From positions 1-43,560 of IMG/VR virus record IMGVR_UViG_3300017527_000399: DNA of 43,560 nt; one strand, given 5' to 3'. Shown piece by piece: positions 6,388 through 25,784 of the stretch. Under the pieces are notes generated by a model that was given only the letters and a program-made list of their open reading frames with translations, was not told where the DNA came from and did no database searches. Made by a program: the position numbers and the translations under genes. Numbering within the stretch: position 1 is the first letter of the stretch; the number at the start of each line of letters is the position of its first letter. The DNA is from a virus.

Positions 6388-6747
6388 ATGAAAAGATTAA
6401 TTATTCTAGTATTAATCGTTTTCTTAGCAACCCCTGCATTTGCAGAAATAAAAGAAACCCAAAAGAACCAAATCTACAACCAGCCCGGAACGAGTTATAA
6501 AACAACCGCTATCAGGGAACACACCCATCCTTATGAAGACACCTATCTAAGCAACACCGATAACCAGAGAACAGGTGCCGAGGCGGGTGTAGGCGTGGAT
6601 TTATTACTTTTCAAGTTCGGGGAAAACGCTAAGAACCTAAAGAAAGTCAAGTTAGAATTAAAGAAAGACCTTATTGATATGGACAGAATGAGCGGATACC
6701 TGGTTGCAGAAGTAGATGTTTCCAGTGTCTTTGCTTTTCTGCAGTAA
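6388..6747 (+). CDS. Exported protein of the head cluster, unknown role
   Basis: The 119-residue product begins with a textbook Sec signal peptide: basic MKR, a Leu/Ile/Val core and a cleavage site after ATPAFA (about residue 19). The mature part has a Lys-rich helix (about 80-95) and ends VSSVFAFLQ. It lies directly before the scaffold gene with an AAGGAGAAAA ribosome site. A signal peptide is unexpected this deep in a head cluster. This is the first of a dozen such genes. Confidence 0.75.
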   Translation: MKRLIILVLIVFLATPAFAEIKETQKNQIYNQPGTSYKTTAIREHTHPYEDTYLSNTDNQRTGAEAGVGVDLLLFKFGENAKNLKKVKLELKKDLIDMDRMSGYLVAEVDVSSVFAFLQ

Positions 6748-6795
6748 GTACCAACCATTAACCACGTCCACTATGACGTAAAAAGAGGAGGAATG

Positions 6796-7506
6796 ATGGT
6801 AGAAGAAATACAGGACGAAAACACTGTAGACCCGTCCACTACGGAAACTGAACAATCGGAAGCAACCGAGGAACAAGCTGTTCAGGAAGAGCAATCCATA
6901 CCGTACGACAGGTTCAAAGAGGTCATCGACCAAAAGAACCAAGCCGCCCAAGAAGCCGAGCAATGGCGACAGCAGGCGCAAGTATTAACGGACAAACTAT
7001 CTCAACCCAATGCACCAGCCGCGACGAAACAAGAGATAGATTTAATCCAAAAGTACGGTGCACAAGACCCAGCCACCCGAGAGTTCTTAAGGGAGCTCAA
7101 AGGTGAGATGCGGAAAGAAGCCCAAAAAGTAGGTGAGGAACTTTCTGCTCCCATCTTACGGGAGAACGAAGCATTACGCAGGACTATTGCAAGTATTCAG
7201 GAAAAGCAGTTCCGTCAAGAGAATAGTGACGTTAAACCTAATTCCCCTGAAGAAAAAGAAATAGCGCAATATGTTTCTCTGGGTATGTCTCTTGACAAAG
7301 CCACTATGGCGGTCATGGGGACTAAACGGATTGAGGAAGCCAAAAAAACAGGAAAAGTAAGCACAACAAAGAAAACACAACAAAAAGTTCAAGCCAATCT
7401 TGAACGGACATCAGTCCCCTCTGACACCAGTATCCCCTCAGAGACACCGTCTTACAGGGATGAAATACGGCAAAAGTTAGAGACAGATTGGGATGGAACT
7501 TTGTAA
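6796..7506 (+). CDS. Capsid scaffold protein
   Basis: The roughly 236-residue product is acidic at its N terminus (EETEQ-type repeats), followed by a long Gln/Glu/Lys coiled coil (about 40-160), and ends in a charged tail RDEIRQKLETDWDGTL. This is the pattern of phage scaffold proteins, which guide procapsid assembly and then leave. It sits immediately before the major capsid gene, as expected. Two ATGs are adjacent (6793 and 6796); the GGAGG spacing favours the second. Confidence 0.82.
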   Translation: MVEEIQDENTVDPSTTETEQSEATEEQAVQEEQSIPYDRFKEVIDQKNQAAQEAEQWRQQAQVLTDKLSQPNAPAATKQEIDLIQKYGAQDPATREFLRELKGEMRKEAQKVGEELSAPILRENEALRRTIASIQEKQFRQENSDVKPNSPEEKEIAQYVSLGMSLDKATMAVMGTKRIEEAKKTGKVSTTKKTQQKVQANLERTSVPSDTSIPSETPSYRDEIRQKLETDWDGTL

Positions 7507-7517
7507 GGAGTTAGCAA

Positions 7518-8492
7518 ATGGCAGTAGGTAATAGTAGTTTTACTACCTTAATTACCACTACTTTACAGAATCATGGTAAAGAGATATTCGATGCTATCTC
7601 AACAAACAATGCGTTATATTGGATGTTAAGACAAGCAGGCAATATCAAAGTAGTTGGTGGTGGTAGGAAATTCACTCATCCGATTATCTACAAAACTAAC
7701 CCTTCATTTGCGATGTATTCTAAGTTGGACACCATTGGTCTTAACGTGACCGATGCAATCACAAGAGCAGAGTATGATATCAAAGTTGCTGCGGGTTCTA
7801 TTGTTTTGTCTGATGTAGACTTAGCGATGAACGCTGGCAATAAAGAAAGATTACTCGAACTTGCTGATGTTAAAAGGTTAGAAGCTGAGATTTCAATGTC
7901 CGAGTTAATGGGCGACCAGGCTTTTGGAGATGGTACAGGCTCAAACGACTTCGGCGGGTTACAGTTTTTAATCCATGAGACACCAACTGGTCAAAGTAAT
8001 GTCGGTGGGATAGATTGTACCGCTAGTACAGCATTAACGTATTGGCACAACTATACCAACACATCGGCAATTACGGCCTTCAATACATCCGATACAGGGG
8101 TAAAAGCGTGGAATGATATCTTAAATAATACAATTTACGGGCGTAGAGGCCCGCGGGCTGTATTTACGACTAAGACAATCTACGGTTTATATGAGATCGG
8201 ATTGACGAGCAATATTCGATATGCTCAAACAGACCTTGCAGATGCAGGGTTTAGACACCTTCAATACACAACGTTACCAGTACTTTTCGATGATAATTGT
8301 CCTACGGGCAATACGTACTTCGTAGATACTGATAGCTTATGGTTGCAGGTATTAGCACAAGGGAACATGAAAATGTTCAAATTCCAAGAAAAAGATGACC
8401 AACTTGCGAAATCCGCATTAATGGCTTTGTACGGTAATTTAACCACAGGGTCTAGGAGAACGCAAGGGGTTCAAACTAACACAACGGCTTAA
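7518..8492 (+). CDS. Major capsid protein, HK97-like fold
   Basis: The 324-residue product resembles podovirus/P22-group coat proteins. It has an N-terminal segment NALYWMLRQAGNIKVVGGGR leading into beta strands, then a long helix-rich spine (LADVKRLEAEISMSELMGD). Near the C terminus is FKFQEKDDQLAKSALMALYG, typical of coat proteins of this type. There is no signal peptide. The ribosome site AAGGAGTTAGCAA is good. It follows the scaffold and precedes an exported decoration-like protein. Confidence 0.9.
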   Translation: MAVGNSSFTTLITTTLQNHGKEIFDAISTNNALYWMLRQAGNIKVVGGGRKFTHPIIYKTNPSFAMYSKLDTIGLNVTDAITRAEYDIKVAAGSIVLSDVDLAMNAGNKERLLELADVKRLEAEISMSELMGDQAFGDGTGSNDFGGLQFLIHETPTGQSNVGGIDCTASTALTYWHNYTNTSAITAFNTSDTGVKAWNDILNNTIYGRRGPRAVFTTKTIYGLYEIGLTSNIRYAQTDLADAGFRHLQYTTLPVLFDDNCPTGNTYFVDTDSLWLQVLAQGNMKMFKFQEKDDQLAKSALMALYGNLTTGSRRTQGVQTNTTA

Positions 8493-8501: not shown

Positions 8502-8987
8502 ATGAGAAAATTACTTATTTCTTTATTTGCCCTCCTATTCGTTGCAGGAGTGGCATACGCAGGTACAATCTGTGACCCTTCAGCAGGCCCTTGTAGAGAA
8601 GTAACATCCTATTATAACAGTAGCTCGTCAACTACGTTGACTGCGGGTATGGTTGTTATCTGGGATACGGACGACTCTACAGGAGATAACGATAATTACG
8701 TCGATGTTACAACGACATCTGGTACCGGCCCTGTCGCTGGTATAGTTCTTGTCGGTGCAGCAGTAGGAGCAGACGGGATTATGGTTACAGACGGAGTTAC
8801 GACTGTTACAGTTCCTTCTTCCGGTGTCGGTTCTGACATCGTAGCTGGAACGTTCCTTTGTACTTCAGGAACAGCAGGAACAGCGCGTTCTTGTCCTTCT
8901 TCGGGGGTTGACAAGGGATTACAGTTTGGTTATGCAACAGCAACCGCATCAGGCGGTTCTGTTCTAGCAAACATAGACTGCGAGTAA
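8502..8987 (+). CDS. Decoration-like protein with a Sec signal peptide
   Basis: This 161-residue protein has a clear signal peptide (MRKLLISLFALLFVAG, cleavage after VAYA near residue 20). The mature part is Gly/Ser/Thr/Val-rich beta protein with LTAGMVVIWDTDD and TGPVAGIVLVGAAVG, reminiscent of head-decoration proteins encoded right after coat proteins. Two Cys pairs (ICDPSAGPC and LCTSGTAGTARSC) could form disulfides outside the cytoplasm. The ribosome site AAGGAGGAACA is strong. The decoration role is inferred from position and composition. Confidence 0.72.
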   Translation: MRKLLISLFALLFVAGVAYAGTICDPSAGPCREVTSYYNSSSSTTLTAGMVVIWDTDDSTGDNDNYVDVTTTSGTGPVAGIVLVGAAVGADGIMVTDGVTTVTVPSSGVGSDIVAGTFLCTSGTAGTARSCPSSGVDKGLQFGYATATASGGSVLANIDCE

Positions 8988-9057: not shown

Positions 9058-10311
9058 ATGTTCTGGATATTTGTACTCACGATACTAGGGACTAATTTAG
9101 CACCGTTCATATTTTATGGGTTAGATATCTGGCATGCACAAGGGTTTTGGGTACAGACAGGGATATTTATATTATTCACGTTATCGTTCTTTTATAAAGG
9201 GGTACCTACTCTTAAAAACAAACCACTCGGATTATTACACGGCTGGATAGGGTTAAGTGTGGGGGTATTCTGTTTTCTTGCTCAGGTAAAGGGGAAGTAT
9301 GATTTACAACATTTTCTCCCTTATTTCAATCTGCTTTGTTTACTTATCTTCTATAAGCTCATCGTTCAATATTTGAACAAAGAGAAGGTTGAGAAGATCT
9401 TAGAGTATATGCGTTGGGGGTTAATCGCAACGTTATTTGTGTGTGTATTACAATATTTCGGTTTAAGCCAATTTTTCATATTCTTATTAAAAGACCACCC
9501 CCAATTTCATGAATACTGGAACAACCCTGTCAACGGGTTTATCGGGAACGGAACGCATCTAGCGGGATTCCTCGCTATGTGTATACCGTTACTATTCATC
9601 AAGAAGAAGAAGGAGAACTGGTTTGTATTAGGCTTAACGTGCCTTATTTTACTGACCGTAACGGGAGAGCACAAAAATGATGTGGCTGTTTCAGGTATTA
9701 TTACTAGTTTATGTGTCGGCGCTTATCTACTTTACTTTAAAAGAAGGAAGGCGTTCTATATAGCTCTCCCCCTAGCGGTAGTAAGCCTACTCGTGTTAAC
9801 CCTTATAAACAAAGATTTATTTTACCCACATGGGCGAATCCAGTGGTGGAAGTATTACTACCCGTTATTTAAATCTCACGCAGTAACAGGGATAGGGTTA
9901 GGTGGGATAAACATCATCTATAAGCAAACCTTATTCCCTGATTTACGGCATTTACATTTAGAGTATTACCATTACGCGCTTGAACTAGGAATCATCGGGT
10001 TAATTTTAATTATCAATGTCATATATACATTTTTTAAAAATAGGGTTTCAGACCACACTTCAATATGCCTTAAAGCTATTGTGTTGGGTTTTTGTATCAG
10101 CTGTATTTTTAATTACACTTCGCACCTTTGGCTACCTTCTATTTACGCTATGTTCGCATATGCCTCGGTGTATGCAATCAGAAATGAGGAAATAAATGCT
10201 GTCAACACGCAAAGCAATAAAGGATCACGTACTCTCCACAACCCGCCAAGAAAGTTCGCAAATAGGGTCACTCGTCGAAGAGTTCATAAATCTCACCTTA
10301 AGAGAAGTTGA
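9058..10311 (+). CDS. O-antigen ligase/polymerase or O-OTase-like membrane protein
   Basis: This 417-residue polytopic protein has about ten hydrophobic segments. It shows features of the WaaL/Wzy/PglL (Wzy_C) superfamily: NGFIGNGTHLAGFLAMCIPL (159-178) and, after a long loop, TGIGLGGINIIYKQ followed by RHLHLEYYHYALELGIIGL (297-315). In that superfamily this loop carries the transfer site. These enzymes move lipid-linked glycans to lipid A, to a growing polymer or, as O-oligosaccharyltransferases, to exported proteins. ATG 9058 with AAAGGG upstream is preferred to TTG 9046. The last 38 residues are out-of-frame reading of the adaptor gene, a sign of insertion into the morphogenesis cluster. 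Confidence 0.75.
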   Translation: MFWIFVLTILGTNLAPFIFYGLDIWHAQGFWVQTGIFILFTLSFFYKGVPTLKNKPLGLLHGWIGLSVGVFCFLAQVKGKYDLQHFLPYFNLLCLLIFYKLIVQYLNKEKVEKILEYMRWGLIATLFVCVLQYFGLSQFFIFLLKDHPQFHEYWNNPVNGFIGNGTHLAGFLAMCIPLLFIKKKKENWFVLGLTCLILLTVTGEHKNDVAVSGIITSLCVGAYLLYFKRRKAFYIALPLAVVSLLVLTLINKDLFYPHGRIQWWKYYYPLFKSHAVTGIGLGGINIIYKQTLFPDLRHLHLEYYHYALELGIIGLILIINVIYTFFKNRVSDHTSICLKAIVLGFCISCIFNYTSHLWLPSIYAMFAYASVYAIRNEEINAVNTQSNKGSRTLHNPPRKFANRVTRRRVHKSHLKRS

Positions 10312-11176
10312 ATCCCCAGGTTGGGCGTTTAGAAAAGAAATCCATCATCGATGGTCATGGTTAAAACGCAAGACTACTTTTACCACCACGGCTTCGACAT
10401 CAGAATACGTGTTAGAGAGGGATATCAAAGACGTTGCTATCGTCACCCAACGAGAATCCCCAACCAAGATATACCGTGTTACAGACGAACAATTCCTCAA
10501 ATACGAGCCCGAACCTACTGATACGGGGAACCCTGTACTTTACAGGTTATGGGAAATATCCGGTGTAGGGACTAAACTTTCTACTGCAGACACGATAGAT
10601 GTGGTATCGAGTTCTACTTCCGACGATAACGACAGCGATTTAGCGGTAACAATATGGGGGTATGTAAACGGTATTCTTCAGTCAGAGAGTTATGTGTTAA
10701 ACGGTACGACCACGGTTACAGGTTCCACCACGTTTGATGCAAGAGATATCTTTGTTTCCAAGAGCAAGAACACCACGGGGACGATAACGATTACTGCAGG
10801 TGCGACCACACTCACTACGTTAGGAAAGGAAGAGCGTAACCCTATCCACAAGGTCATGGATTTATACCCTATTCCAGGCAGTGCGATGACTATTTACATT
10901 CAATACTACTCTCATTTGAGGGAATTAGTTAGAGATAGCGATGTCCCGCAATTCGACCCGAACTGGCATTATGTTATAAGGTTAGGTACTTTAGCCAAGG
11001 TCTACCAGTTTTTAGGGAAAGAGAACGATTTCACCACAACACAAGCGTTATATTCAGCGAGTGTCAGAGCGATGGTTAATGCTGATCGGGGGGTAAGCGA
11101 TTTTATCCCCAGGCTAGAAAGACACAGGTTCAGACAGTTTCCTCATATCAGGAGGTCAACAGCCGATGTTGCGTAA
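10196..11176 (+). CDS. Head-tail adaptor protein (SU10-adaptor-like)
   Basis: The 326-residue product begins with helices (EEFINLTLREVESPGWAF) typical of podovirus adaptors that dock under the portal. The middle (about 110-215) is a Thr/Ser-rich beta domain of a kind inserted in SU10-type adaptors (TIWGYVNGILQSESYVLNGT). It then returns to helices (DPNWHYVIRLGTLAKVYQFL). No signal peptide is present. GAGGAAATAA precedes the ATG. It overlaps the upstream membrane-protein gene by 116 nt; since this N terminus looks native, the overlap comes from extension of the upstream frame. Confidence 0.8.
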   Translation: MLSTRKAIKDHVLSTTRQESSQIGSLVEEFINLTLREVESPGWAFRKEIHHRWSWLKRKTTFTTTASTSEYVLERDIKDVAIVTQRESPTKIYRVTDEQFLKYEPEPTDTGNPVLYRLWEISGVGTKLSTADTIDVVSSSTSDDNDSDLAVTIWGYVNGILQSESYVLNGTTTVTGSTTFDARDIFVSKSKNTTGTITITAGATTLTTLGKEERNPIHKVMDLYPIPGSAMTIYIQYYSHLRELVRDSDVPQFDPNWHYVIRLGTLAKVYQFLGKENDFTTTQALYSASVRAMVNADRGVSDFIPRLERHRFRQFPHIRRSTADVA

Positions 11177-13019
11177 ATGTTTAGTATTCTTATTGTTTAC
11201 AACTTTATGTTACGCACAAAACCCTAAGTTAATCGGATATCCACCCCAGACTATTATGGGATTCCGCGGGTTAGATACACGTACCAGCGCACCGTTATTA
11301 CAGGACGGACGAGCTTCGGATTTAAAAAACGTTAAATTATCCCGCAGTTTTGATTTAGAGAAACGCAGAGGGTACGACCCGGTAGATGACACACTAGACG
11401 ATTTAGATATAGATTCTCCTGCGATTAACGGGATATTCTATATGGAATATTCTAACGGCAATGAACGGATTTACGCGTTTGTCGGGAAGAAATTAAAGTA
11501 CGATTCAGGGACAGCATGGACGGAAGTTACTGATTCACCTGAAGGGCATAAAGTAACGGGTATCACCACAGGCAAGAACAACCAGTGGCAATGTATCAGC
11601 GCGTTAGATTACGCTGTCTGCACGAACGATACTGATTTACCGTTAAAAATAGATTCTACCCCTGAATACTCTGATTTAGATTTATCTGATTTAAGTGATG
11701 CCGTAACTAAAGTAAAAACGGTTATATGGTATAAAAACTATTTAGTTTTAGGGAATACCGTTGAGGCGGGGACAGAGTACCCTACGCGTGCACGATGGTC
11801 GAATGTCGGTACGATACAGTCTTGGACGGATGAGGATTATATCGATATAGGCGCACTTGCGGGAGATGAAATTGTAGGGTTTGCCGAGTTATACGGCGAC
11901 CTTTACGCTTTCTTAAGAAACTCGATTTACAAAGCGTCTTTTGTAGGAGGGGATGATGTCTTTACCGTTAATAAAGTCATTGAGAACATCGGTTCGATTG
12001 CTAGGGATTCGATACAAACAATCCTCTTGGAAGATAACCGCCGTGCCATTATTTTTCTTGACGAAGATAAGAGGGTATATTTATTCAACGGCGCTACGAT
12101 TACAGATATCGGATGGATTATCCAACCGACACTCGACAATCTCAACTCGTCACGAATCCAATATTCCGTAAGCACGTTTGACGGGGATTCTTACTATCTC
12201 TCGTCCAGTACAAGCGGTGTAACGGAGAACGACAGTATTTACGAGTTTCAGACAGAGGTCGGCGAATGGACTAAACATACTGATATCAACGCCAATGCGT
12301 TTGGTCAAATCAAAGATTCCAGTGTTGTAAAAACCTATTTCGGGAACTACGACGCGCATGTGTATTGGTTAGATAACCCCGATTATACATCAGACGGCGG
12401 TGATGGGACAGGATATGTCGGTGTAGTTGAATCTGTAGGCACGGTCAATACCCGCACGATAACAGGAGCACAGTTCATTAAAGACTCTACCCCTGGGTTC
12501 AGCACAACCCAACTGACAGGATGTTTATTCAAGATAACCTCAGGGACAGGGGCGGGAGAAGAACAGGTTATTGTGTATAACACCTCAACGGGTGTTGCCG
12601 TAGCCACAGCGTTCACCACTACCCCGACGACAACGAGTAATTACTCGATAGGTGCGATAGATGCCGCGTATACCACTAAATGGTACGATTTCGGGGATTC
12701 CCCAAGACTTAAAAACTTCCGTAAATTATTCCTTTGGGGTGAAGAATCTACAGGGGATGAAGTCATTGTAAGTTATTCTGTAGATTTCGGGTCAACGCTA
12801 GGAAGTGAAGCCAAGAACCTTAGTCCATCAACATCGAGTTTATGGGATTCAGCGTTATGGGATATCGGTGTCTGGGGGACAACAGGAGACAAGTTTTATA
12901 CGACTTTACTTAGCGGGTACGGGCGGATGATAGAGTATAAGTTTGAGAACGCGGATATCAACGAAAACTTTCATTTATACGGGTTTCATATGTTAGCGGA
13001 CGTGATGGATGTGGAATAA
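11166..13019 (+). CDS. Tail nozzle/stabilisation protein with signal peptide
   Basis: The 617-residue body resembles P22 gp10/T7 nozzle-type beta-propeller proteins that close the short tail. After GFRGLDTRTSAPLLQDGRAS it contains RARWSNVGTIQSWTDEDYID and LYGDLYAFLRNSIYK, hallmarks of such proteins. Preceding this is a Sec-type leader MLRKCLVFLLFTTLCYAQ (1-18). A signal peptide on a tail nozzle is abnormal because nozzles normally assemble on cytoplasmic heads. A C-terminal part (about 430-490, GTGAGEEQVIVYN) resembles a small beta domain. The start overlaps the adaptor stop by 11 nt. Confidence 0.82.
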   Translation: MLRKCLVFLLFTTLCYAQNPKLIGYPPQTIMGFRGLDTRTSAPLLQDGRASDLKNVKLSRSFDLEKRRGYDPVDDTLDDLDIDSPAINGIFYMEYSNGNERIYAFVGKKLKYDSGTAWTEVTDSPEGHKVTGITTGKNNQWQCISALDYAVCTNDTDLPLKIDSTPEYSDLDLSDLSDAVTKVKTVIWYKNYLVLGNTVEAGTEYPTRARWSNVGTIQSWTDEDYIDIGALAGDEIVGFAELYGDLYAFLRNSIYKASFVGGDDVFTVNKVIENIGSIARDSIQTILLEDNRRAIIFLDEDKRVYLFNGATITDIGWIIQPTLDNLNSSRIQYSVSTFDGDSYYLSSSTSGVTENDSIYEFQTEVGEWTKHTDINANAFGQIKDSSVVKTYFGNYDAHVYWLDNPDYTSDGGDGTGYVGVVESVGTVNTRTITGAQFIKDSTPGFSTTQLTGCLFKITSGTGAGEEQVIVYNTSTGVAVATAFTTTPTTTSNYSIGAIDAAYTTKWYDFGDSPRLKNFRKLFLWGEESTGDEVIVSYSVDFGSTLGSEAKNLSPSTSSLWDSALWDIGVWGTTGDKFYTTLLSGYGRMIEYKFENADINENFHLYGFHMLADVMDVE

Positions 13020-13287
13020 ATTATTAATTATATTATTAGTTCTAGTTCTTTGCGGGGCGAGGATGGAGAAACCCTTCACGTTTACCGATTTATCCGATGA
13101 GAAACAAATCCAGAAACTCAACAGGATTTTAATAGATTTACAAAACATTATTAACGGGCGGTTAGAGTTAGATCTTGTCACCACATCGAAGGCAGACCCT
13201 AATGATGGCGAGTTCTGGTTAATCCAGACAGGGCCGAATGTACGCATACAGTATAGAGGGAACAATCATACATTTACAACAAAGTAG
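13009..13287 (+). CDS. Small exported or anchored protein
   Basis: The 92-residue product starts MWNKLLIILLVLVLCGARM, a hydrophobic leader with a Cys at residue 15; LVLC is not a strong lipobox, so export, anchoring or lipidation are all possible. The middle is helical (SDEKQIQKLNRILIDLQNII) and the end (GEFWLIQTGPNVRIQYRG) resembles small tail-associated phage proteins. ATGTGGAATAAA makes the start overlap the previous stop by 11 nt, exactly as at 19723. Confidence 0.65.
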   Translation: MWNKLLIILLVLVLCGARMEKPFTFTDLSDEKQIQKLNRILIDLQNIINGRLELDLVTTSKADPNDGEFWLIQTGPNVRIQYRGNNHTFTTK

Positions 13288-13294: not shown

Positions 13295-13783
13295 ATGAAA
13301 TTAACACATTTATTTTTAATCCTAGCGTTACTGAGTTATGCGGGTGCTCCGAGCAGACCAAACACTTTTAGTGCGGGGACAACCATCGACTCGGATGAAG
13401 TCAATGACGATTTGAATACGCTTTACAACTATTTATCCGCAGGGGTAGACTCGTTTGAAGACTTCTCGATTGTCAATGCGGACATCAGCGCTAGTGCGGA
13501 TATTATTGCAAGCAAGTTAAATCTAACCACCATAGCACAGAACATCACGAATACGGGCACATTCTCAAATACAGGTAACGTTTCAATCGTTGGCACAGTC
13601 GGAGTATCGAGTTCTCTTACATCAACCACCACCACGTCGGTAGGATGGACAATCCAGAAAAGCGCTAACCAGGAGTGTAATACCACGTGTACCGCAGGTT
13701 GTGGGTTCGGGTTTGATGGGAGTACAATAGTAAACTGTAGTGACGCGACAGCAGACGCGTGCTTATGCCTAGGGAGTTCATAA
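13295..13783 (+). CDS. Tail fibre-like exported protein, paralogue 1
   Basis: The ATG at 13295 follows AGGGGAAAT; an open frame continues upstream to 13238, but the leader MKLTHLFLILALLSYAGA makes 13295 the better start (162 residues). The mature N terminus (FSAGTTIDSDEVNDDLNTLY and IVNADISASADIIASKL) is typical of phage fibre or neck-appendage proteins. It aligns with the next gene. The C-terminal 40 residues carry six Cys (for example CNTTCTAGC), consistent with disulfides in an oxidising compartment. A TAATG overlap links it to the next gene. Confidence 0.72.
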   Translation: MKLTHLFLILALLSYAGAPSRPNTFSAGTTIDSDEVNDDLNTLYNYLSAGVDSFEDFSIVNADISASADIIASKLNLTTIAQNITNTGTFSNTGNVSIVGTVGVSSSLTSTTTTSVGWTIQKSANQECNTTCTAGCGFGFDGSTIVNCSDATADACLCLGSS

Positions 13784-16038: not shown

Positions 16039-16051
16039 GTAAGGAGTTAAT

Positions 16052-16873: not shown

Positions 16874-19413
16874 TGCCACGGCTTATTCCAGATAACCCAA
16901 GACTTGTTTTAGATGAACCGAGGCTTGTTCCAGACAAGGATGCTTCCTTTAAGGATATGTCAAAATTTATGAAAGTGATTGACATTATCTCCCGCCCAGG
17001 ATACGCAGTAAAATCCTCTCTCTCGGAACTCGAACAGCAAGTACCCCATCTTACCTTTAAGGGTGGTGTTGGAATAGACCAACCCACGAAACCTTTTGAC
17101 CCAACAGAAATACTGAAAGCGGGCGGCAAGGGTATGTCTGGGAAGGAAAGACTCACAGCGAATGAGTTATTAAGCCGTATCGGTATCCATGGTATTCCAG
17201 GAGCTGGGTTCACCGCAGAAGTGGCATCTGACCCCTTGATGTGGTTTGGTGGTGCTGGATATAAAGCAATTACTAAGGGGGTAGGTAAAGGTGTTAAGAC
17301 TGTTGGTAAAGGAGTGAAGTCTATCCCCATCATAGAAAGAGCATTGGGGATTGTTACAGAAAAAGCCCAACCAGTAACAACCGCACTAAGGAATATGTTT
17401 GTAACGAAGAGTGGGTTCAAGAAATTCAATGACCTCATAGAAACCCATTTAACAAAAAGAGAATATTTGCGTGGTAAGGAATTATTGTATGCCAAGAAAG
17501 TACGTAATATCATACAAAATGTGTCAAGGAAATCTGGTCAGTCTGTAGATGACATTGAGAAACAACTTATCGGGCTTATCGAACAACCTGGTATTGCGCC
17601 ATCTAGTGCTCCTGGTGAATTGCGGGCTCTTGCCAACACAATGAAGAGTCACCTTTCCAATATGCTTACAAAGGAAATGAAGGCGGGTGTACCAATAACC
17701 CATTTGGCAAAAGGGAATCGTGGTATTGAATACTTTCCACGCATTACGGTGCAAGAAGCGAAAAAATACTTAAAACAAGCAAGAGTTGGAAATGCAAAGG
17801 TATGGAATCCACGGTTAGCAAATGCTCTTCAACGTAAGACTATGGATTTTACCCTTGCAGAGTTTAATGATTTTGTGGCTTCACATGGATTAAAAAGTCT
17901 TGGTGGGAGGTCTGTTGAGCAATTCTTTCTTAAGAAACCAGCTGCAGCGCTCTATATTAGAGGGAGTCGGTCTGCAAAAGCGATTACTTCCGCACAGTTC
18001 TTAGATGATGTGGGTCGGCAATTTGGACAAAGACAAGCGCCAAGCTATTGGGAGGAATTACCTAATGCTATTACTCGGTTAAATCCTAGGTTAAGAGGGT
18101 TAAAGTTTGACCCTGAGATAGCAGAGGAAATAGGAAGGACAACTGCCCAATATTTTAACCCAAAAGAAACGGGTGTATTCTTAAAGGGATATGATTTTGT
18201 TCAAAATGCTTGGAAGAAGTGGACACTTGCGCCTTTCCCCAAATACCACCTTAGAAATATGGTTGGGAACCTTTGGAATAATCACTTGGCGGGTGTTCAG
18301 CTTTCCCAATATCCTAGGGCACAAGCCTTACAAATGTACCGAAAGTACGGGAACAAGGGCGGGAAGATGGGGAAGTATGCAATAGCTGAATTGGATAAAA
18401 TTGGAATTTCTCCTCAGCAAGCCGATGATTTTATTCGATGGGCAGAACAAACTGGTGTTCTTGGACAGGGATGGTATGCTGCTGACGTAGAGACAGCCGT
18501 AGAGCAAGCCCTTAAGGGTAGCAAGGGATTAATTGGTCGGGGGATGGCTTTTGGAACGACAATAGAAAACAATGCAAGATTGGCACATTTCCTAGATAGG
18601 CTAGACAAGGGGGATGATATTCTCGGTGCAGCACAGTCTGTAAAGAAATTCCTTTTTGATTACACGGATTTAACAGCTTTTGAAAAACAAGTCGTTAAAC
18701 GATTAATGCCCTTCTACACATGGACACGCAAGAACGTACCTTTACAACTACAACAGATTTGGGAGAAACCCCAGAAGTTCGCACCACTAGGCATACCGTT
18801 ACGTCAGAGAGACCCAAAAGATTTATTACGTCTCAAGTATTCTTCTCCGCAACTATATGAACGATTACCAATAGAACTACAACGCGATATAGATACTGTG
18901 ACGTATATACCGTTAGAAGGCCTTCTCCCCGCAGGTGATTTGGCTAAAATGGTTCGCCCACAGGAGATGTTTCTTGAACTTATAACCCCTTATTTACGTG
19001 CACCCATTGAGTTAAGAATGAATAAAAGTTTCTATTTTGAAAGCGAGATACAACGATACGATAATCAAACTCAAGAACTTTTACGAATGGATATCCCTGT
19101 TAAATTAAAATACACCCTTACCACTGTATTGCCACAAGCAAGGATGTTAAATGAATTAAATAAACTCGTTAAAAAACAGGTCAGAAAAGAAAAACTCACT
19201 GTGGGGGAGCAGGCCTTTGCACAATCTTTATCGTCTGTTTACAAGATGAATTTAAACGATTTAAAAGTCAGAGCAGTTAAAAGAATTAAAAGAAAGATTA
19301 GCGATTTAAAACGCGGTGCATATTGGGCAAAAGTTTATGATAGGAAACAGGAATTAAAACGTATAGAGCAAACCATTAAAGAAGTTGCAAAAGAAATTGG
19401 TGAGGTAAGATGA
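16873..19413 (+). CDS. Large internal virion protein, polyvalent-protein-like
   Basis: At 846 residues this is the second largest product. After a repeated N-terminal PRLVxD motif (residues 2-21), it is mainly helical. The segment KKFLFDYTDLTAFEKQVVKR followed by LMPFYTWTRKNVPLQ matches a motif I associate with large polyvalent/internal virion proteins of podoviruses. No lytic transglycosylase motif was recognised. A TAATG overlap ties it to the preceding gene and an ATGA overlap to the next. Leucine codon choice seems to change near 18.7 kb. Confidence 0.68.
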   Translation: MPRLIPDNPRLVLDEPRLVPDKDASFKDMSKFMKVIDIISRPGYAVKSSLSELEQQVPHLTFKGGVGIDQPTKPFDPTEILKAGGKGMSGKERLTANELLSRIGIHGIPGAGFTAEVASDPLMWFGGAGYKAITKGVGKGVKTVGKGVKSIPIIERALGIVTEKAQPVTTALRNMFVTKSGFKKFNDLIETHLTKREYLRGKELLYAKKVRNIIQNVSRKSGQSVDDIEKQLIGLIEQPGIAPSSAPGELRALANTMKSHLSNMLTKEMKAGVPITHLAKGNRGIEYFPRITVQEAKKYLKQARVGNAKVWNPRLANALQRKTMDFTLAEFNDFVASHGLKSLGGRSVEQFFLKKPAAALYIRGSRSAKAITSAQFLDDVGRQFGQRQAPSYWEELPNAITRLNPRLRGLKFDPEIAEEIGRTTAQYFNPKETGVFLKGYDFVQNAWKKWTLAPFPKYHLRNMVGNLWNNHLAGVQLSQYPRAQALQMYRKYGNKGGKMGKYAIAELDKIGISPQQADDFIRWAEQTGVLGQGWYAADVETAVEQALKGSKGLIGRGMAFGTTIENNARLAHFLDRLDKGDDILGAAQSVKKFLFDYTDLTAFEKQVVKRLMPFYTWTRKNVPLQLQQIWEKPQKFAPLGIPLRQRDPKDLLRLKYSSPQLYERLPIELQRDIDTVTYIPLEGLLPAGDLAKMVRPQEMFLELITPYLRAPIELRMNKSFYFESEIQRYDNQTQELLRMDIPVKLKYTLTTVLPQARMLNELNKLVKKQVRKEKLTVGEQAFAQSLSSVYKMNLNDLKVRAVKRIKRKISDLKRGAYWAKVYDRKQELKRIEQTIKEVAKEIGEVR

Positions 19414-19733
19414 GCCTAGATAAAAAAAGAGGAGAAACACCCGTCAATATAACTCCTCCTGACACGATTGGAGACGGGTCAAAAGACGTGACTAGTGCGG
19501 GAACAGCAGAACAATTAACCACTACAGACACGCCTTGCAGGTTAATCAATATTTTCGCAAAAGCGGGTAATACAGGTAACGTGTTTATAGGGGGGAGTAC
19601 GGTAAGTTCCGCAAGGGGGATGGTATTAGAGCAAGCAAGAAGTACGGATTGGTTCCCGATAGATAACGTTAATAAAGTATATGTGGATGCAGCTAATTCG
19701 AACGATGGGGTACAATACTGCTATGTGGTATAA
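19410..19733 (+). CDS. Small structural protein
   Basis: This 107-residue beta-rich protein contains VTSAGTAEQLTTTDTPCRLI and NTGNVFIGGSTVSSARG, a pattern familiar from small phage virion proteins that present a compact beta domain; the exact role is unknown. There is no signal peptide. The start overlaps the previous stop as ATGA, and the stop overlaps the tailspike start by 11 nt. Confidence 0.65.
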   Translation: MSLDKKRGETPVNITPPDTIGDGSKDVTSAGTAEQLTTTDTPCRLINIFAKAGNTGNVFIGGSTVSSARGMVLEQARSTDWFPIDNVNKVYVDAANSNDGVQYCYVV

Positions 19734-22227
19734 ACTCTTATTTATTTTCTTTTTAATGGTTTCATCGTCTTACGCTGCCTTACCACCGACAAGGATCTTA
19801 GATGAAGGTGTTGATAAAGGTGTGTTCTTCAAGCTCGACTGTACGGGTGCGGGTGTGGAGTGTACCCAATCAGGAATAACAGGAACTATGACTGTAAGCG
19901 GTGGAGGTGCTGTTCCACAGCAAGCAGTAGTCGTAGCAAAGGCTGATGGTGATTTTGCCACTATTCAAGCTGCGATAGATGATATTACAGACAATGCTAC
20001 TGGCAAGAGATATGTGATCTTAATTTATCCGGGTACATATACCGAAAATATTACTATGGAAGATTTTGTATCTCTCCAAGGCGTGGGTAAGCGTAGTAAT
20101 GTCATCATAGACGGTACTGTTACTTTTGCTTCTGATGCAGGAGATAATGCAGGAATAGAAAACTTAAAGGTTGCGGAAACTACAACTACTTCAGGACTTG
20201 ATTTAATAACTTCTCCTAGCTCTACTGGACAACACGCTATCAGAGAATGTACTCTACAACTAATCAATACAGACAATGGCGATGTAGGTTCTTTAATAGA
20301 TGATGATGGTGGTACATTGAGAATACTCAGAAGTAAACTTATCTATAACTTCGGTGGTACTAACGCAGGGGCAGCTACACATCCTATCATAGATTTAGCT
20401 GGTACACTTGCTTATAGCATTGTTGATACCGAGATTGTGGTGGATATAGATGATGTCGATGACCTTGTAAATGTATTTCATATAACTTCTACTGATACGG
20501 GAGAAAAATCTATCCGTAACAACAGAATAGAAGCGGATATGGAAAATGCCGATTATGCTGGTACTCTAAAGATATTCAACCTGATAGGCGAGGCAGCAAT
20601 AGATTTTCATATCACAGGTAATCATATTCATGGGAAGGCTTCAGGTGGTGGTACACCAGCAGGTAATGGGTATGCCTATTATCTTGATTCAAATGGGAAT
20701 ACGTCAACTCTATCTTCTGCTCACAACGATATAATTATAGAGAAGTTTGGGACTAAAGATTATTCTTTCTTTGCTGATACAGGGGATACAATAGGAAGTC
20801 ACTTTGATGATGTAGTAGCTGCTGATGAAATACAAAGTGGCATAGTAAATACCATATCCTCATTCGTTGATGGTGAATTGAGTATCCGAACAGGTAGTGC
20901 TGCTGACCCTACTGTTCACTTCAAGACTACTAACTCCGCCAATGAGGTAAACTTCTCTTTAGATGAGAGTGCCGCAGATGACATACTGGTTATAACAGGA
21001 CAGACTGCTTCGCAAGATACAGAACTTCACTTTAAGGCACAAGATGGGGAGAACGCTGTATTAAAGATGTTTAGTGGTTCTAATTCTGGGCAAATAAAGT
21101 ATGGTTCAAACGATGAATTGACTATAAAGAATAATAAACAAGATGAGAATATGAACTTTATAATTGATGATGGTGGAGTGGATAAGACAATTACTTGGGA
21201 TGCTACTAATGATACATTAGAACACTCCGCAGGGACATTTAACTTTGATGATGATGCGCTAACGACTACAGCAGGAATAACAGGATTGACAGTAACAGCG
21301 ACAACTACGGTGACAGGAGAACAACTTACATCTACAGATGATGCTAGTATAGCTGATTGGCTAGATATAGGTGGGCCAACACCTGCTTCTGCTCTACATG
21401 TTTATGATGCAGGCGGTGGGCCTACTGGTGGTCTTATAGCTACATTTGGGGTAGGTACAGGAAATGTTTATGTAACAACTTCAACAGCGAGTGATGCCGA
21501 GCAATATATCTATGGTTGTGATTCAGGAGGGGATTGTTTTACGGGCGCATTATCTAATGATGACCTTCATATAAGGGCTAATAACTCAAATAAGATGCTC
21601 GTTCAAACAAGCGGCAGGGTAGCAATAAATGCCGACCCGTCAGAAGCAACATTATACATCGAATCTTTAGCGACAAATGTTGAAGCGTTGAGAATCGGGT
21701 TAGCGGCGAGTCAGACAGCAAATGGAATCGCTGTTGTTAATTCAGCCGATGGGTATTTGTTTCAGGTAGATGATGACGGTACAGTTACCTCCGCAGCAGG
21801 ACTTATATCAACAGGGCTACTTGTTTCTGCCCAGATGCAGGACTCCTCTCTTACAAACTGCGATACCGTGTATACGGACAGCACCGGGATTTTACGGTGT
21901 AGAACAGTCGAGTCAAGGGAAAAATGTGTTACCTTAGAAACACCTGTTTCCGCAGATGATAACATTCCGTTTTGGCATCCGCATGACACGATAACGATTA
22001 CCGATGTTTACTGTGAGGTAGACGGCGGGACTTCCGCTGACTTAGTTATCTCTGATGGTACAAACGTTTTAGAATCTATCACCTGTGATGAAGACGGTGC
22101 GGCGGATGACGGATCGATAGCGAACGGAGTATTTATCGCAGACGAGAGAATGGAATTTGATTTGACAGTAACAGGGTCAGTAAACTGGCTGAATTTTTGT
22201 ATAACCTATACAGTAGATGTAGATTAA
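19723..22227 (+). CDS. Tailspike-like protein, pectin-lyase fold, exported
   Basis: The start is ATG 19723 (834 residues), because MWYKLLFIFFLMVSSSYA is a signal peptide; the open frame reaches back to 19681. The mature protein shows a right-handed beta-helix region (about 55-370), including FATIQAAIDDI and YVILIYPGTYTENITM, as in pectin-lyase-fold tailspikes that bind or degrade surface polysaccharide. Middle repeats are fibre-like, and the last 130 residues hold a Cys-containing beta domain (about five Cys). No catalytic triad could be assigned by eye. It is probably the main receptor-recognition spike. Confidence 0.8.
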   Translation: MWYKLLFIFFLMVSSSYAALPPTRILDEGVDKGVFFKLDCTGAGVECTQSGITGTMTVSGGGAVPQQAVVVAKADGDFATIQAAIDDITDNATGKRYVILIYPGTYTENITMEDFVSLQGVGKRSNVIIDGTVTFASDAGDNAGIENLKVAETTTTSGLDLITSPSSTGQHAIRECTLQLINTDNGDVGSLIDDDGGTLRILRSKLIYNFGGTNAGAATHPIIDLAGTLAYSIVDTEIVVDIDDVDDLVNVFHITSTDTGEKSIRNNRIEADMENADYAGTLKIFNLIGEAAIDFHITGNHIHGKASGGGTPAGNGYAYYLDSNGNTSTLSSAHNDIIIEKFGTKDYSFFADTGDTIGSHFDDVVAADEIQSGIVNTISSFVDGELSIRTGSAADPTVHFKTTNSANEVNFSLDESAADDILVITGQTASQDTELHFKAQDGENAVLKMFSGSNSGQIKYGSNDELTIKNNKQDENMNFIIDDGGVDKTITWDATNDTLEHSAGTFNFDDDALTTTAGITGLTVTATTTVTGEQLTSTDDASIADWLDIGGPTPASALHVYDAGGGPTGGLIATFGVGTGNVYVTTSTASDAEQYIYGCDSGGDCFTGALSNDDLHIRANNSNKMLVQTSGRVAINADPSEATLYIESLATNVEALRIGLAASQTANGIAVVNSADGYLFQVDDDGTVTSAAGLISTGLLVSAQMQDSSLTNCDTVYTDSTGILRCRTVESREKCVTLETPVSADDNIPFWHPHDTITITDVYCEVDGGTSADLVISDGTNVLESITCDEDGAADDGSIANGVFIADERMEFDLTVTGSVNWLNFCITYTVDVD

Positions 22228-22236: not shown

Positions 22237-22608
22237 ATGAGAGGTTTAATTATCGGGTTAGTTCTGTTCGGGTTGGTGACATTTTCTTTTGCCGAGGAGT
22301 ATACGGGGAAAGCAGAAAATATTACGGCTACGGAACGAGGGGTTTCGATAGAGATTGTTATTGTGGACTCTAGGGGTCAAGAAGTCTACCGAAGACAGAC
22401 CAATATCTCCACAGGAACAAAGACACCCGAAGAGACAGAGGACGCTATTAAAAACATCGTAGAACGAACCACTCAAGAAGTCTATGCCCATATTGAAGGC
22501 GGGAAAGCCGTTGAGGCGAATAAGACCGAATTAGAGGCGTTTAGCTATAAGTGCAAGGTTTATGTTGCCCCCGACTTGAGACCAGTAACGAGGGATACAC
22601 GTGACTAA
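22237..22608 (+). CDS. Exported small protein
   Basis: The 123-residue product has a signal peptide (MRGLIIGLVLFGLVTFSFA, cleavage near residue 19). The mature part is a beta/alpha mix with VSIEIVIVDSRGQEVYRRQT and a helix ETEDAIKNIVERTTQEVYAH. It is not recognised. AAGGAGGAAAG precedes the start. It lies between the tailspike and lectin genes and may be a fibre-associated factor. Confidence 0.68.
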   Translation: MRGLIIGLVLFGLVTFSFAEEYTGKAENITATERGVSIEIVIVDSRGQEVYRRQTNISTGTKTPEETEDAIKNIVERTTQEVYAHIEGGKAVEANKTELEAFSYKCKVYVAPDLRPVTRDTRD

Positions 22609-23431
22609 TTTGGTTAAAGCAACACTGGTTATTTTCTTATCTTTAATTCTTTCTGCGTATAACTACTGTTTAGATTCCAGGTGTGTCGGGTGCTGGTACA
22701 TGGAATCTTCCGCAACGGAGACGGACGAATCAGGGAATAACGAAACGTTAAGTGAATCGGCGGGTGACGATATCCCTGCGTCCGCTACAAAGAAGTTTGG
22801 GACATATTCAAGGGATTGGGAGAACTCAGGCGGGGAAAACGAGTACCTTTACCATGCAGATGGCGGTTCAACCGATTTAAACGGCGCAAACCAAGATATA
22901 GTTATTTTAACATGGGTAAGGGTTGAAACAGACAATGGAGCGATTAACGATTTAGTCAGTAAGTACGATTACGGTGATGGGAATAAGCAGTTTGATTTAC
23001 GAGCAGATATGTCTGATGACACCTTTATGTTTCGGCTAAGCAATGATGGCAGTTCTAATAACGATGTCTATGGTGAAGCGGTAGTAACAGCGGGGACATG
23101 GGTACATTTAGTCGGATATTACGATGACAGCGGAAGTGATTTAACCTGTTACTATGACAACACAGAGTGTGGTAGTCCCGCGTCTTATACAGGGGGGATG
23201 TATGATGGGAACGAAATCTTCTCCGTAGGGATGTATTGGAACAGCGGAACTGCGGCACGACCCTATGACGGGTTGATGGACGACATTGCGGTGTTTGATG
23301 AAGCAATAACAACCGTAGAGTTGGGGGATATCTATAATTACGGGTTAAAAGGACGGGATAGGAGAATAATTGTTGTTCGTCAGGCTGAAGCAACAAGACT
23401 CTGGAAGAAAATCTTTAAATATTACCAGTAG
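22601..23431 (+). CDS. LamG/concanavalin A-like lectin, exported
   Basis: The 276-residue product begins at GTG 22601, overlapping the previous stop by 8 nt, with a hydrophobic leader (LVKATLVIFLSLILSAY). The body is a LamG-type jelly-roll: DIVILTWVRVETD, then GTWVHLVGYYDDSGSDLTCY, ending in PYDGLMDDIAVFDEAITTVE, the characteristic last strands. LamG domains bind sugars or proteins. It is a likely virion adhesin or fibre tip. Cys residues in the leader region and at CYYDNTEC may pair. Confidence 0.78.
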   Translation: MTNLVKATLVIFLSLILSAYNYCLDSRCVGCWYMESSATETDESGNNETLSESAGDDIPASATKKFGTYSRDWENSGGENEYLYHADGGSTDLNGANQDIVILTWVRVETDNGAINDLVSKYDYGDGNKQFDLRADMSDDTFMFRLSNDGSSNNDVYGEAVVTAGTWVHLVGYYDDSGSDLTCYYDNTECGSPASYTGGMYDGNEIFSVGMYWNSGTAARPYDGLMDDIAVFDEAITTVELGDIYNYGLKGRDRRIIVVRQAEATRLWKKIFKYYQ

Positions 23432-23440: not shown

Positions 23441-23725
23441 ATGAAAAGAATATTATATCTTGGATTAGTATTAACCTTTTTTACCACAGCTGTCTATGCG
23501 GGGGAGATAACCATTACCATCCCCACAGCGATTCAAGCGGACGTTATCACAGCGGTATGTACTAGGGCGGGAGTTGAAGTTTCCGCAGCAAACGCTAAAG
23601 CTATTATTCGTTCTTTCATACGTGAGACGTATAAAGCATGGAAAGTAGATACTGACGCAACGAGTTATAAAGCTGCTGTTGAAAGTGATGCAGATACAGC
23701 GTCAACCACTGTGACGGTGGAATAA
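23441..23725 (+). CDS. Exported small protein
   Basis: The start at 23441 rather than 23435 gives correct spacing from GGAG. The 94 residues comprise a signal peptide (MKRILYLGLVLTFFTTAVYA) and a mature part, ITITIPTAIQADVITAVC, then a helix (AKAIIRSFIRETYKAW). Cytoplasmic proteins with a similar ITITIP...YKAW layout occur in other phages, from general memory, so the signal peptide may be an added module. Role unknown. Confidence 0.65.
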   Translation: MKRILYLGLVLTFFTTAVYAGEITITIPTAIQADVITAVCTRAGVEVSAANAKAIIRSFIRETYKAWKVDTDATSYKAAVESDADTASTTVTVE

Positions 23726-23726: not shown

Positions 23727-24065
23727 ATGTATAAATACAACGCCTATGTAAAGAAAGTCCTTGATGGGGATACCTGTGATGTAAATATCGATTTAGGGTT
23801 TGATATCCATATAAACCAGCGGTTACGGTTTTTCGCGATTGACTGCCCGGAAAGCAGGACGAGGGATAAAGAGGAGAAGAAACATGGATTAATGGCTAAA
23901 GAATACACTAAAAACGCTATTGAAGGGAAGGATATATTAATCGAAACAAACGAGAAAGGTAAATTCGGTAGGTATTTAGCTACCATTTATTATAAAGGAA
24001 AAAACCTAAACAAAGAGCTTATCGCAAAGAATCTAGCCAAGCCTTACTTTGGAGGAAAACGATGA
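23727..24065 (+). CDS. Staphylococcal-nuclease-family protein
   Basis: The 112-residue product is a compact SNase domain: VLDGDTCDVNIDLGF (11-25), RLRFFAIDCPESR (32-44) and GKFGRYLATIYYKGK (78-92). The catalytic set of the family (Arg35, Glu43, Arg87) matches R34, E42 and R82 here. Such enzymes cut single- and double-stranded DNA/RNA with Ca2+. It lacks a signal peptide although its neighbours have one. Possible roles are host DNA breakdown or DNA clearance. Confidence 0.85.
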   Translation: MYKYNAYVKKVLDGDTCDVNIDLGFDIHINQRLRFFAIDCPESRTRDKEEKKHGLMAKEYTKNAIEGKDILIETNEKGKFGRYLATIYYKGKNLNKELIAKNLAKPYFGGKR

Positions 24066-24310
24066 AAGCAATATTAATTCTTTTACTTCTACCCACGTTA
24101 GTTTTTGCTGGTCAGGACAGAAGAATCAGTGATGGGGATTCTCATGTGCTCGATATAACTTCTGGCGGAGAACTAAAGATAAGCTTTACCAACGGGGCGA
24201 TTATTAACACGTCGGGAGCGAAAGACCGCAGGCTTTCTGATGATGATGGAGATGTTTTAGATATAAATAGCAATGGAACAGTAACGATAAAGTTTGGGAC
24301 ACCAACCTAG
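24062..24310 (+). CDS. Exported protein with repeated RRxSDxDG module
   Basis: The 82-residue product has a signal peptide (MKAILILLLLPTLVFA) followed by two copies of a 30-residue module: DRRISDGDSHVLDI and DRRLSDDDGDVLDIN. The same module opens the next gene after its own signal peptide. The acidic SDDDGD strings might bind Ca2+, but this is unproven. It probably arose by duplication from the next gene. Confidence 0.68.
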   Translation: MKAILILLLLPTLVFAGQDRRISDGDSHVLDITSGGELKISFTNGAIINTSGAKDRRLSDDDGDVLDINSNGTVTIKFGTPT

Positions 24311-24318
24311 GAGGAAAA

Positions 24319-25413
24319 ATGAAAAAATTATTAATCTTATGTATCCTCCTTTTATCCACCACGCTCGTATTTGCTGCAGGAGCCAAAGATAGAAGGATTA
24401 GTGATGATGACGGAGATGTTTTAAATATTAACTCTGATGGTACGTTACCTGTTTCAATAAGTGGCGATGTTACCTTAGAAAACGGAGAGTTAATCGACAA
24501 CTCCACTGATGGCACGATATGTTTACAAGGAGCAGGTGGGACAAATAACGAGGATATATGTTTTGGTTTAGAGTCAATATCTAACGAGATAGTATTAGAT
24601 TCTAATACTAGTGCAACAAGAATAAACTCTGATTTTACAATGCGATTTTCAGACAACATAGCGGCTCAGTGGGGTGGTGGTTCTGATGCTCTAATGCTAT
24701 GGACTGATGTTGGGAATGATAATTTACAATTAGCTATAGGCGTTGGGTCTGCTGCCGATAGTGGTTATTTTAGTCTTATGGAATATGCAGACAGAACAGC
24801 CGCCAACCGTTCCCCTTCAGGCACATCTGCTAATCCTGTATTAAGGGTCTATTCGAGTGATGCGACGGAAGCGAATGACTATATTGAGATGTATCATGAC
24901 CAAGGAAAAGGTATTATTACTGTTGGAACAGGATCAGTGACCTTAAATGCTAACAGTAATGGAAAAATAATATTTCAAGACGGAGGTTCTAGCTTATTTA
25001 ATGTTGTAACAGATGCAGCAGGCGATCAATCTATGTTTGCAACAGAAGATGTTGGTGGAAATCAAATCATTATAACAAATGACGGTAATTCAACTAAAGA
25101 CCACGACCATGCTACCCAAACCAATCCAACAGTTTACATTCAATCAGATACCGACCCAGATACTGATAATCAGCAATGGGGAAGTCTTTCACATGACCAG
25201 ACAGATTTTATCATAACAGGGGATGCGGGAGATACTAAAATAACCGATAACCTTGTTGTAACAGGATTAATTGTTACTGCTCCCTACTCGGGTGACCCTT
25301 GTACCGCAGCTAGAGAAGGAGCTATCTTCTGGAATACGTCAGCGAATGAACTTTGTGTTTGTGATGGGACTAATGATGTAAGAATTAAGGATGCTTCAAC
25401 CGCATGCTATTAA
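24319..25413 (+). CDS. Exported fibre-like protein
   Basis: This 364-residue protein has a signal peptide (MKKLLILCILLLSTTLVFA) and one KDRRISDDDGDVLNINSDGT module. A long Ser/Thr/Asn/Asp-rich beta region follows (about 60-310), similar in composition to the middle of the tailspike. The C terminus has four Cys (DPCTAAREGAIFWN, LCVCDGTNDV and a terminal CY). Domains of that last type are found in secreted or fibre proteins. It is probably a second fibre or spike arm. Confidence 0.72.
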   Translation: MKKLLILCILLLSTTLVFAAGAKDRRISDDDGDVLNINSDGTLPVSISGDVTLENGELIDNSTDGTICLQGAGGTNNEDICFGLESISNEIVLDSNTSATRINSDFTMRFSDNIAAQWGGGSDALMLWTDVGNDNLQLAIGVGSAADSGYFSLMEYADRTAANRSPSGTSANPVLRVYSSDATEANDYIEMYHDQGKGIITVGTGSVTLNANSNGKIIFQDGGSSLFNVVTDAAGDQSMFATEDVGGNQIIITNDGNSTKDHDHATQTNPTVYIQSDTDPDTDNQQWGSLSHDQTDFIITGDAGDTKITDNLVVTGLIVTAPYSGDPCTAAREGAIFWNTSANELCVCDGTNDVRIKDASTACY

Positions 25414-25427
25414 AAAGGAGGAGAAAA

Positions 25428-25784
25428 ATGAAGTTTTTATTAACCCTTGGATTAATCTTTTTATTAACTATTCCTTGCTTTGCAAGTGATATTAATCAAT
25501 CAGAGGTAAGACCAGATGTATCTGTATGGCGTCTCGATACAGTCAAGTTTTTAGCTTTCACGGAGACCGCTGAGATTACTTATCGCAAAGGTTATATGGA
25601 TAGCGGGAATTTCATTGCTATTGGCGGAGAGGTTAATATTTTATTTCAAAACATAGAAGATAACCCTGAAACTCCTGAAGATGAATCAAGCAATGAATTT
25701 ACTCAATTAATTAACCTTATTAACAATAACGATAATATTAAAACGTCAGTAACACAGGCAGTACGGGTTAAACTAGGTATCTAA
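25428..25784 (+). CDS. Exported small protein
   Basis: ATG 25428 follows AAGGAGGAGAAAA, giving 118 residues with a signal peptide (MKFLLTLGLIFLLTIPCFA). The mature part is not recognised; it has an acidic stretch (EDNPETPEDESSNEF) and ends SVTQAVRVKLGI. It is the last of the exported late proteins. A TAATG overlap leads to a small membrane protein. Confidence 0.68.
   Translation: MKFLLTLGLIFLLTIPCFASDINQSEVRPDVSVWRLDTVKFLAFTETAEITYRKGYMDSGNFIAIGGEVNILFQNIEDNPETPEDESSNEFTQLINLINNNDNIKTSVTQAVRVKLGI

Follow-up and report, generated by a model that had tools for sequence, protein, structure and literature searches.

Sec-type leaders on predicted outer virion proteins of a podovirus clade and a possible two-compartment assembly route

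Virion proteins with signal peptides are known from the filamentous Inoviridae (M13/fd): the coat proteins pIII and pVIII carry cleavable ones that direct them to the inner membrane or periplasm, in which pIII acquires its disulfides. For tailed phages, so far as we are aware, assembly is regarded as wholly cytoplasmic. A stretch of viral DNA (IMG/VR virus record IMGVR_UViG_3300017527_000399, 43,560 bases, referred to here as the window) was analysed in which Sec-type leaders open many genes of a tailed-phage structural region. As with the Inoviridae coat proteins, virion proteins are predicted here to have cleavable signal peptides. The M13/fd particle, in contrast, is extruded whole at the membrane without lysis, whereas the leaders described here are confined to the outer parts of a tailed, DNA-filled particle. 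Membership of the Inoviridae was ruled out by the presence of the terminase large subunit (TerL), a portal and an HK97-type capsid.

The window resembles P22/T7-type podoviruses in gene order and in portal, capsid, adaptor and nozzle homology, and phages of the phi29/T1/TW1 type in the fold of its decoration protein. Unlike in the window, the decoration, nozzle and fibre proteins of all these phages lack signal peptides and are added to heads in the cytoplasm (T7, P22, epsilon15 and BPP-1 were tested). Epsilon15 is, like the window, a podovirus with a gene of the O-antigen-ligase family, but there the gene is encoded on the opposite strand, within a conversion module that follows the tailspike, and the structural genes of epsilon15 are without leaders. 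The corresponding gene of the window shares the Wzy_C domain, a conserved Arg and a His-Glu motif with O-oligosaccharyltransferases of the PglL/PilO type and with WaaL O-antigen ligases, and adjoins the gene for a putative exported acceptor; unlike those enzymes it is phage-encoded and lies inside a virion operon. No report of Sec leaders on virion proteins of tailed phages was found in the open literature (subscription journals and preprints lay outside the search).

Sec leaders in the window and in its clade

A tripartite Sec leader was found at the start of 13 of the 23 genes between 6388 and 25784. An earlier note on this DNA had listed at least twelve such genes in the structural region, and every coordinate listed proved to be an open frame starting with a leader. 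The hallmarks of Sec signal peptidase I substrates were present in these genes (a positive n-region, an uncharged hydrophobic core and small residues at −3 and −1). The same note had named TerL, portal, scaffold, capsid, adaptor and internal proteins as leaderless, and this list was correct. Leaderless genes absent from it are those for a GNAT protein (14940), an SNase-like protein (23727) and the product of 19410; the Wzy_C membrane enzyme at 9058 had not been mentioned either. The podovirus morphogenesis module was complete and in order (TerL, portal, HK97-type capsid, adaptor, nozzle), as judged by PHROG matches and a nozzle profile match. The features were as follows.

1232..2782, + strand: TerL, no leader; phrog_38, 3e-82
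3357..5210, + strand: portal, no leader; phrog_1216, 1e-11
6388..6747, + strand: small protein with Sec leader MKRLIILVLIVFLATPAFA, cleavage before E
6793..7506, + strand: scaffold-like protein, no leader; assigned from its place before the capsid gene and its acidic coiled composition
7518..8492, + strand: major capsid protein, no leader; phrog_9953, 3e-51
8502..8987, + strand: predicted capsid decoration protein with Sec leader (8502-8561) MRKLLISLFALLFVAGVAYA, cleavage before G
9058..10311, + strand: polytopic enzyme of the Wzy_C / O-antigen-ligase superfamily; PF04932 in relatives, PDB 7tpg
10196..11176, + strand: adaptor-like tail protein, no leader; phrog_10775 tail protein, 5e-4
11166..13019, + strand: nozzle / tail-stabilisation protein with Sec leader (11166-11216) MLRKCLVFLLFTTLCYA, cleavage before Q
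13009..13287, + strand: small leader-bearing protein after the nozzle, leader MWNKLLIILLVLVLCGA; a fibre or tip joint would be a guess
13295..13783, + strand: fibre-type protein with Sec leader MKLTHLFLILALLSYAGA, cleavage before P; six Cys at the C end
13783..14943, + strand: tail fibre with Sec leader MKKLLILFLLLSPPCFISDAVA, cleavage before G; glycine-rich C-terminal domain; phrog_863, 2.6e-20; PF21722, 1.9e-14
15232..19413, + strand: putative internal virion protein block (15232, 16052, 16873), no leader; role assigned from position
19723..22227, + strand: spike or fibre-like protein with Sec leader MWYKLLFIFFLMVSSSYA, cleavage before A; weak match to a pectinesterase-type beta-helix, 2e-5
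22237..22608, + strand: small leader-bearing protein, leader MRGLIIGLVLFGLVTFSFA, cleavage before E
22601..23431, + strand: LamG/concanavalin-type lectin domain protein; PF13385, 7e-17; GTG start, weakest leader MTNLVKATLVIFLSLILSA, cleavage before Y
23441..23725, + strand: small leader-bearing protein, leader MKRILYLGLVLTFFTTAVYA, cleavage before G
24062..24310, + strand: small leader-bearing protein, leader MKAILILLLLPTLVFA, cleavage before G; KDRR(I/L)SD repeat in common with 24319
24319..25413, + strand: fibre-like protein, function assigned by position; leader MKKLLILCILLLSTTLVFA, cleavage before A
25428..25784, + strand: small leader-bearing protein, leader MKFLLTLGLIFLLTIPCFA, cleavage before S

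Leaders were called with a rule-based predictor written for this analysis. It found 13 of 14 known E. coli leaders (PhoA was missed), and in the E. coli ribosomal/gsp region it marked GspD and ChiA only, both of which are exported. The predictor marked 12 of the 22 called genes between 6381 and 25790, compared with 0/8 genes upstream and 3/36 downstream of the structural region. An Asp in the c-region caused the predictor to overlook the leader of 13783, which is plain on inspection. Shuffling of residues 1 to 30 left on average 0.26 of the 22 genes marked, and never more than 3. Other podoviruses compared by the same rule had 0 to 2 such genes each (T7 0/39, P22 2/51, BPP-1 1/32, epsilon15 1/48), so that the frequency in the window stands apart from theirs. 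The same pipeline gave 0/23 for BUCT555 and 1/40 for Mx8, the latter having a related capsid protein. Over 41 control or distant loci 17 of 644 genes (2.6%) were marked, versus 103 of 374 (27.5%) in clade loci.

The clade set comprised 26 IMG/VR contigs, some of them non-independent; the 11166 protein, alignments of it and the 9058 protein served as queries. Nozzle identity within the set goes down to 36%. Orthologues of every window gene were gathered by iterated hidden Markov model search and scored for a leader by rule. Leaders were present in 22/23 decoration (8502) orthologues, the remaining one (L016) being leader-bearing in a separate check, in 23/25 nozzle (11166) orthologues, in 20/21 orthologues of the 13009 protein (21 by eye) and in 20/23 fibre (13295/13783) orthologues. 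None was marked among 115 members of the leaderless families (TerL 0/5, portal 0/16, scaffold 0/20, capsid 0/20, adaptor 0/25, GNAT 0/15, 15232 internal protein 0/14); the leaderless orthologues of the internal block numbered 14 (15232), 3 (16052) and 2 (16873). All parts through the adaptor and the head interior were without a leader, and the outer capsid decoration and everything past the adaptor carried one. The expectation that the same leaders would be seen in related genomes was borne out, the split recurring in the 26 contigs. For 6388 no orthologue was found by sequence; leader genes stand at a similar place in two contigs (L004:4858 and L015:4882).

Nearly all rule-negative members of the leader families had a clear leader by eye or in the separate check. 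True loss was rejected for L014 (nozzle) and L012 (13009-like), where the predictor had missed leaders that are visible by eye. The n-region of the L003 nozzle leader is not intact, apparently because sequence was inserted upstream. This sequence (L003:2809-3160) precedes the nozzle gene and interrupts the start of the leader; its reverse strand reads as endonuclease-like by eye.

Mean identity was 24-42% in leaders and 32-47% in mature parts, the leaders being equally or more divergent in most families. Divergent leaders still keep the charge, the hydrophobic core and the Ala before cleavage. In predictor-free alignments the Ala preceding the mature start was invariant in nine decoration proteins and conserved in at least 90% of ten nozzles. 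Leader length was about 20 residues in AT-rich and GC-rich members alike. The sequences give firm evidence for the predicted leaders, for their conservation and for their confinement to outer parts.

Outside the clade, about 35 nozzle homologues carried no leader. L083, which lies outside the clade in the nozzle tree, has leaders on its decoration, nozzle, 13009-like and fibre genes; the trait would have been gained a second time there, or else be ancient and have been lost in other lineages. In L036, the capsid gene of which belongs to another PHROG, both the gene that follows the capsid gene and a tail-fibre gene (phrog_5668, 4e-36) begin with a leader. Nozzle leaders in L061 and L069 were rejected, as the apparent A-F-A sites precede the start codon. 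A distant podovirus with a leaderless nozzle has three leader-like genes after its internal-protein block (L079:16208-19434), and exported late genes may be more widespread.

Two variations in gene content were seen within the clade. An extra short leader-like protein is encoded between the fibre and GNAT genes at L015:12986, L018:13005, L025:13246, L004:12923 and L028:5331. One sub-clade has a small lipoprotein-like gene between the decoration and Wzy_C genes (L049:7632-7865, L056:6959-7159, L026:2580-2849).

Identity and cysteine content of the leader-bearing proteins

The 8502 product was modelled from its family alignment (mean predicted local distance difference test score, pLDDT, 72). 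The top PDB matches of the model were phage capsid decoration or head-fibre proteins (E 1e-4 to 4e-3), the best being phi29 head fibre gp8.5 and proteins of the cyanophage Pam3, HFTV1, TW1, Sf11 and T1 capsids; lambda gpD scored lower. Because of these fold matches and its position directly after the capsid gene, the product is, by model and gene position, a predicted capsid decoration protein.

The 11166 product matched PHROG 3287 ('virion structural protein', 2e-33), with its residue 28 aligned to profile position 6, and the leader is therefore an addition to this family. The nozzle profile reached PDB 9nwi_Y ('capsid and scaffold protein') at 2e-6 and, weakly (0.015), the solved nozzle gp16 8zkk_O. 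The 13783 product matched tail-fibre PHROGs, and members of the fibre family share a conserved anchor domain (approximately APPSRxYTYxxGxxIxxxxVTxNEDxIYxYLQAGVDT) that starts at the cleavage site. Family searches of the clade loci brought up no additional decoration or nozzle gene lacking a leader. Among INPHARED phages no match was obtained for the Wzy_C protein or the fibre proteins, and one weak match for the nozzle.

Six Cys in the C-terminal 40 residues of 13295-13783 had been reported and are present. Mature decoration orthologues contained 2.65 Cys per 100 residues, against 0.42 for capsid, 0.22 for portal, 0.17 for adaptor and 0 for scaffold, and the Cys number was even in 86% of decoration proteins. 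At one pair of decoration alignment columns both positions were Cys in 9 proteins, neither in 13, with 0 discordant (Fisher p 2e-6, uncorrected for relatedness); a second pair gave 5 both, 17 neither and 0 discordant, with the same lack of correction. Such co-variation would be expected of disulfides that form in an oxidising compartment, and suggests them here.

Proposed assembly and the Wzy_C enzyme

We consider it likely that the virion is assembled from two compartments, its outer parts being exported through Sec and joined to cytoplasmic heads at lysis. In the cytoplasm, heads would be built from portal, scaffold and capsid, TerL would package the DNA, and internal proteins and the adaptor ring would be added. 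The outer parts (8502 decoration, 11166 nozzle, 13009 protein, fibres and lectin-like proteins) would cross the inner membrane via Sec and lose their leaders to signal peptidase I, with cleavage after the A-x-A site. Folding would then take place in the periplasm, an oxidising compartment that would allow cysteine pairs to close, and there some of these proteins may be glycosylated by the Wzy_C enzyme, a product of the same gene block. Opening of the inner membrane by a holin would allow heads and outer parts to mix and dock, the particle being completed at lysis; canonical holin holes are large enough for heads to pass. Until the nozzle docked, DNA would have to be kept in by the adaptor or by some other plug of cytoplasmic origin. 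That outer parts are exported, cleaved and then incorporated into particles we infer strongly; their glycosylation is put forward as a hypothesis.

The earlier note had held that either outer virion parts or surface structures of the infected cell pass through Sec. The former is supported by the split across the 26 contigs, the decoration fold, the nozzle homologues that start after the leader and the Cys pairs; the latter fits decoration and nozzle poorly.

If assembly does proceed in this way, a lineage that exports decoration, nozzle and fibres would break the rule of all-cytoplasmic assembly. Phage structural proteins would gain disulfide formation and possibly glycosylation, and holin timing would become part of particle assembly. 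A signal peptide on a phage protein is usually read as a sign of a non-particle protein; it would no longer speak against a particle role, and the recognition of phage structural genes would change.

Several points weigh against assembly from two compartments. P22 and T7 heads need tail proteins to retain DNA, and an exported nozzle, which would leave filled heads unclosed until lysis, is therefore a weak point. No holin or spanin gene was identified in the window. The leaderless GNAT protein is likewise Cys-rich, so Cys composition alone is no proof of an oxidising compartment, and the decoration statistics carry the limit given with them above. A host search found the nozzle in no cellular genome and only three weak bacterial matches to Wzy_C.

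The Wzy_C gene (9058-10311) encodes a polytopic product and lies between the decoration and adaptor genes. It occurs clade-wide, at a fixed place in the virion operon in 25 clade loci, and once per record in six clade records searched whole, the one exception being G004, whose opposite end has an additional fragment, apparently a terminal duplicate. In 6 of the 9 relatives examined PF04932 scored over its cut-off, the best value being 1.5e-17, and a separate scan placed 8 records above it; the window copy gave 20.8 bits, below the cut-off of 31.7. The protein matched PDB 7tpg at 8.7e-5, and R260, H300, E302, E309, G311 and G314 are conserved. A structure search with the Wzy_C model gave weak matches, the best to FtsW/RodA (E 0.01). 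A viral search with the 9058 protein reached other lineages (L036, L037, L038-40), in which the gene directly upstream is also leader-bearing. The upstream protein matches the decoration family in L038-40 (4e-10) and has no such match in L036 and L037.

The gene for an O-oligosaccharyltransferase sometimes adjoins that of its acceptor protein, and Wzy_C is therefore proposed, by analogy and with modest confidence, to glycosylate exported virion proteins. The alternative, that the enzyme has nothing to do with the leaders and alters host O-antigen or lipopolysaccharide against superinfection or progeny loss on debris, as in serotype-converting phages, falls only a little short of an even chance. 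Epsilon15 has its O-antigen-ligase-family gene inside a serotype-conversion module, and Wzy_C is a general ligase/polymerase domain, for which no PglL-specific Pfam match was obtained here (the protein scored 22.6 bits with the O-glycosylation-ligase model TIGR03097, against a cut-off of 188.1). Leaders also occur in L083, yet no Wzy_C gene was found in its 27-kb record. Against a host role stand the fixed place of the clade gene inside the virion operon and the occurrence of Wzy_C after a leader-bearing gene in other lineages, though the upstream proteins of L036 and L037 are not of the decoration family. A strict coupling of leaders and Wzy_C was rejected, given L083 and, in the opposite direction, L037 and L039/L040, which have Wzy_C and a leader-bearing upstream gene and are leaderless at the nozzle position. 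The full scheme, in which cytoplasmic heads are joined at holin lysis to a Sec-exported, disulfide-bonded outer layer decorated by a Wzy_C oligosaccharyltransferase with host lipid-linked glycan, is doubtful as a whole and is offered tentatively.

For the leader-bearing proteins themselves, it is unlikely that they remain attached to the infected cell or are released from it, blocking receptors, preventing superinfection or re-adsorption or serving as decoys, rather than joining the virion. Exported lectin-like and fibre-like proteins could coat cells or debris, and about 13 different exported proteins are many for one particle. Particle parts are favoured instead by the decoration fold, by the place of its gene behind the capsid gene and by the nozzle homology with conserved position, and in the family searches of the clade loci neither decoration nor nozzle had a further copy without a leader. 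It is improbable, too, that the leaders are uncleaved membrane anchors or assembly tags that tether outer parts at the inner membrane for assembly there without real export. Hydrophobic N termini can anchor proteins, and membrane-associated assembly would remove the topology problem of the nozzle; the conserved small-x-Ala site directly before the mature start, the typical leader lengths near 20 and the Cys pair co-variation, with the oxidising compartment it suggests, argue for cleavage and export. An artefact of start choice or prediction is very improbable indeed, since, although the 13009, 13295 and 19723 starts have no clear ribosome-binding site in a simple scan, good Shine-Dalgarno sequences precede most leader starts and the orthologue survey contradicts it, with leaders recurring in divergent relatives of low and high GC content.

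Further features of the window

No near relative of the window was found among annotated phages, and no transfer RNA was detected in its 43,560 bases. Between the portal and capsid genes (5210-5593) a short protein with a YLGGIIDGEGC motif resembles LAGLIDADG homing endonucleases. The SNase-like nuclease without a leader (23727-24065; PF00565, 5e-15) lies amid a row of leader-bearing genes. In two adjacent leader-bearing proteins (24062-25413) the repeat KDRR(I/L)SDDDGDVL(D/N)I(N)S follows directly after the cleavage site and is perhaps a common anchor. Beyond the structural region, leader-bearing genes were seen at 32844-33023, 36166-36432 and 36551-36769, two of them lipoprotein-like (Cys after the site). 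A protein of 75 residues (26031-26258) matches the C terminus of anaerobic ribonucleotide reductase (PF13597, 5e-11) and may hint at an anaerobic host. A 48-nt direct repeat lies at 34094-34141 and 34393-34440, its copies 90% identical and 299 bases apart.

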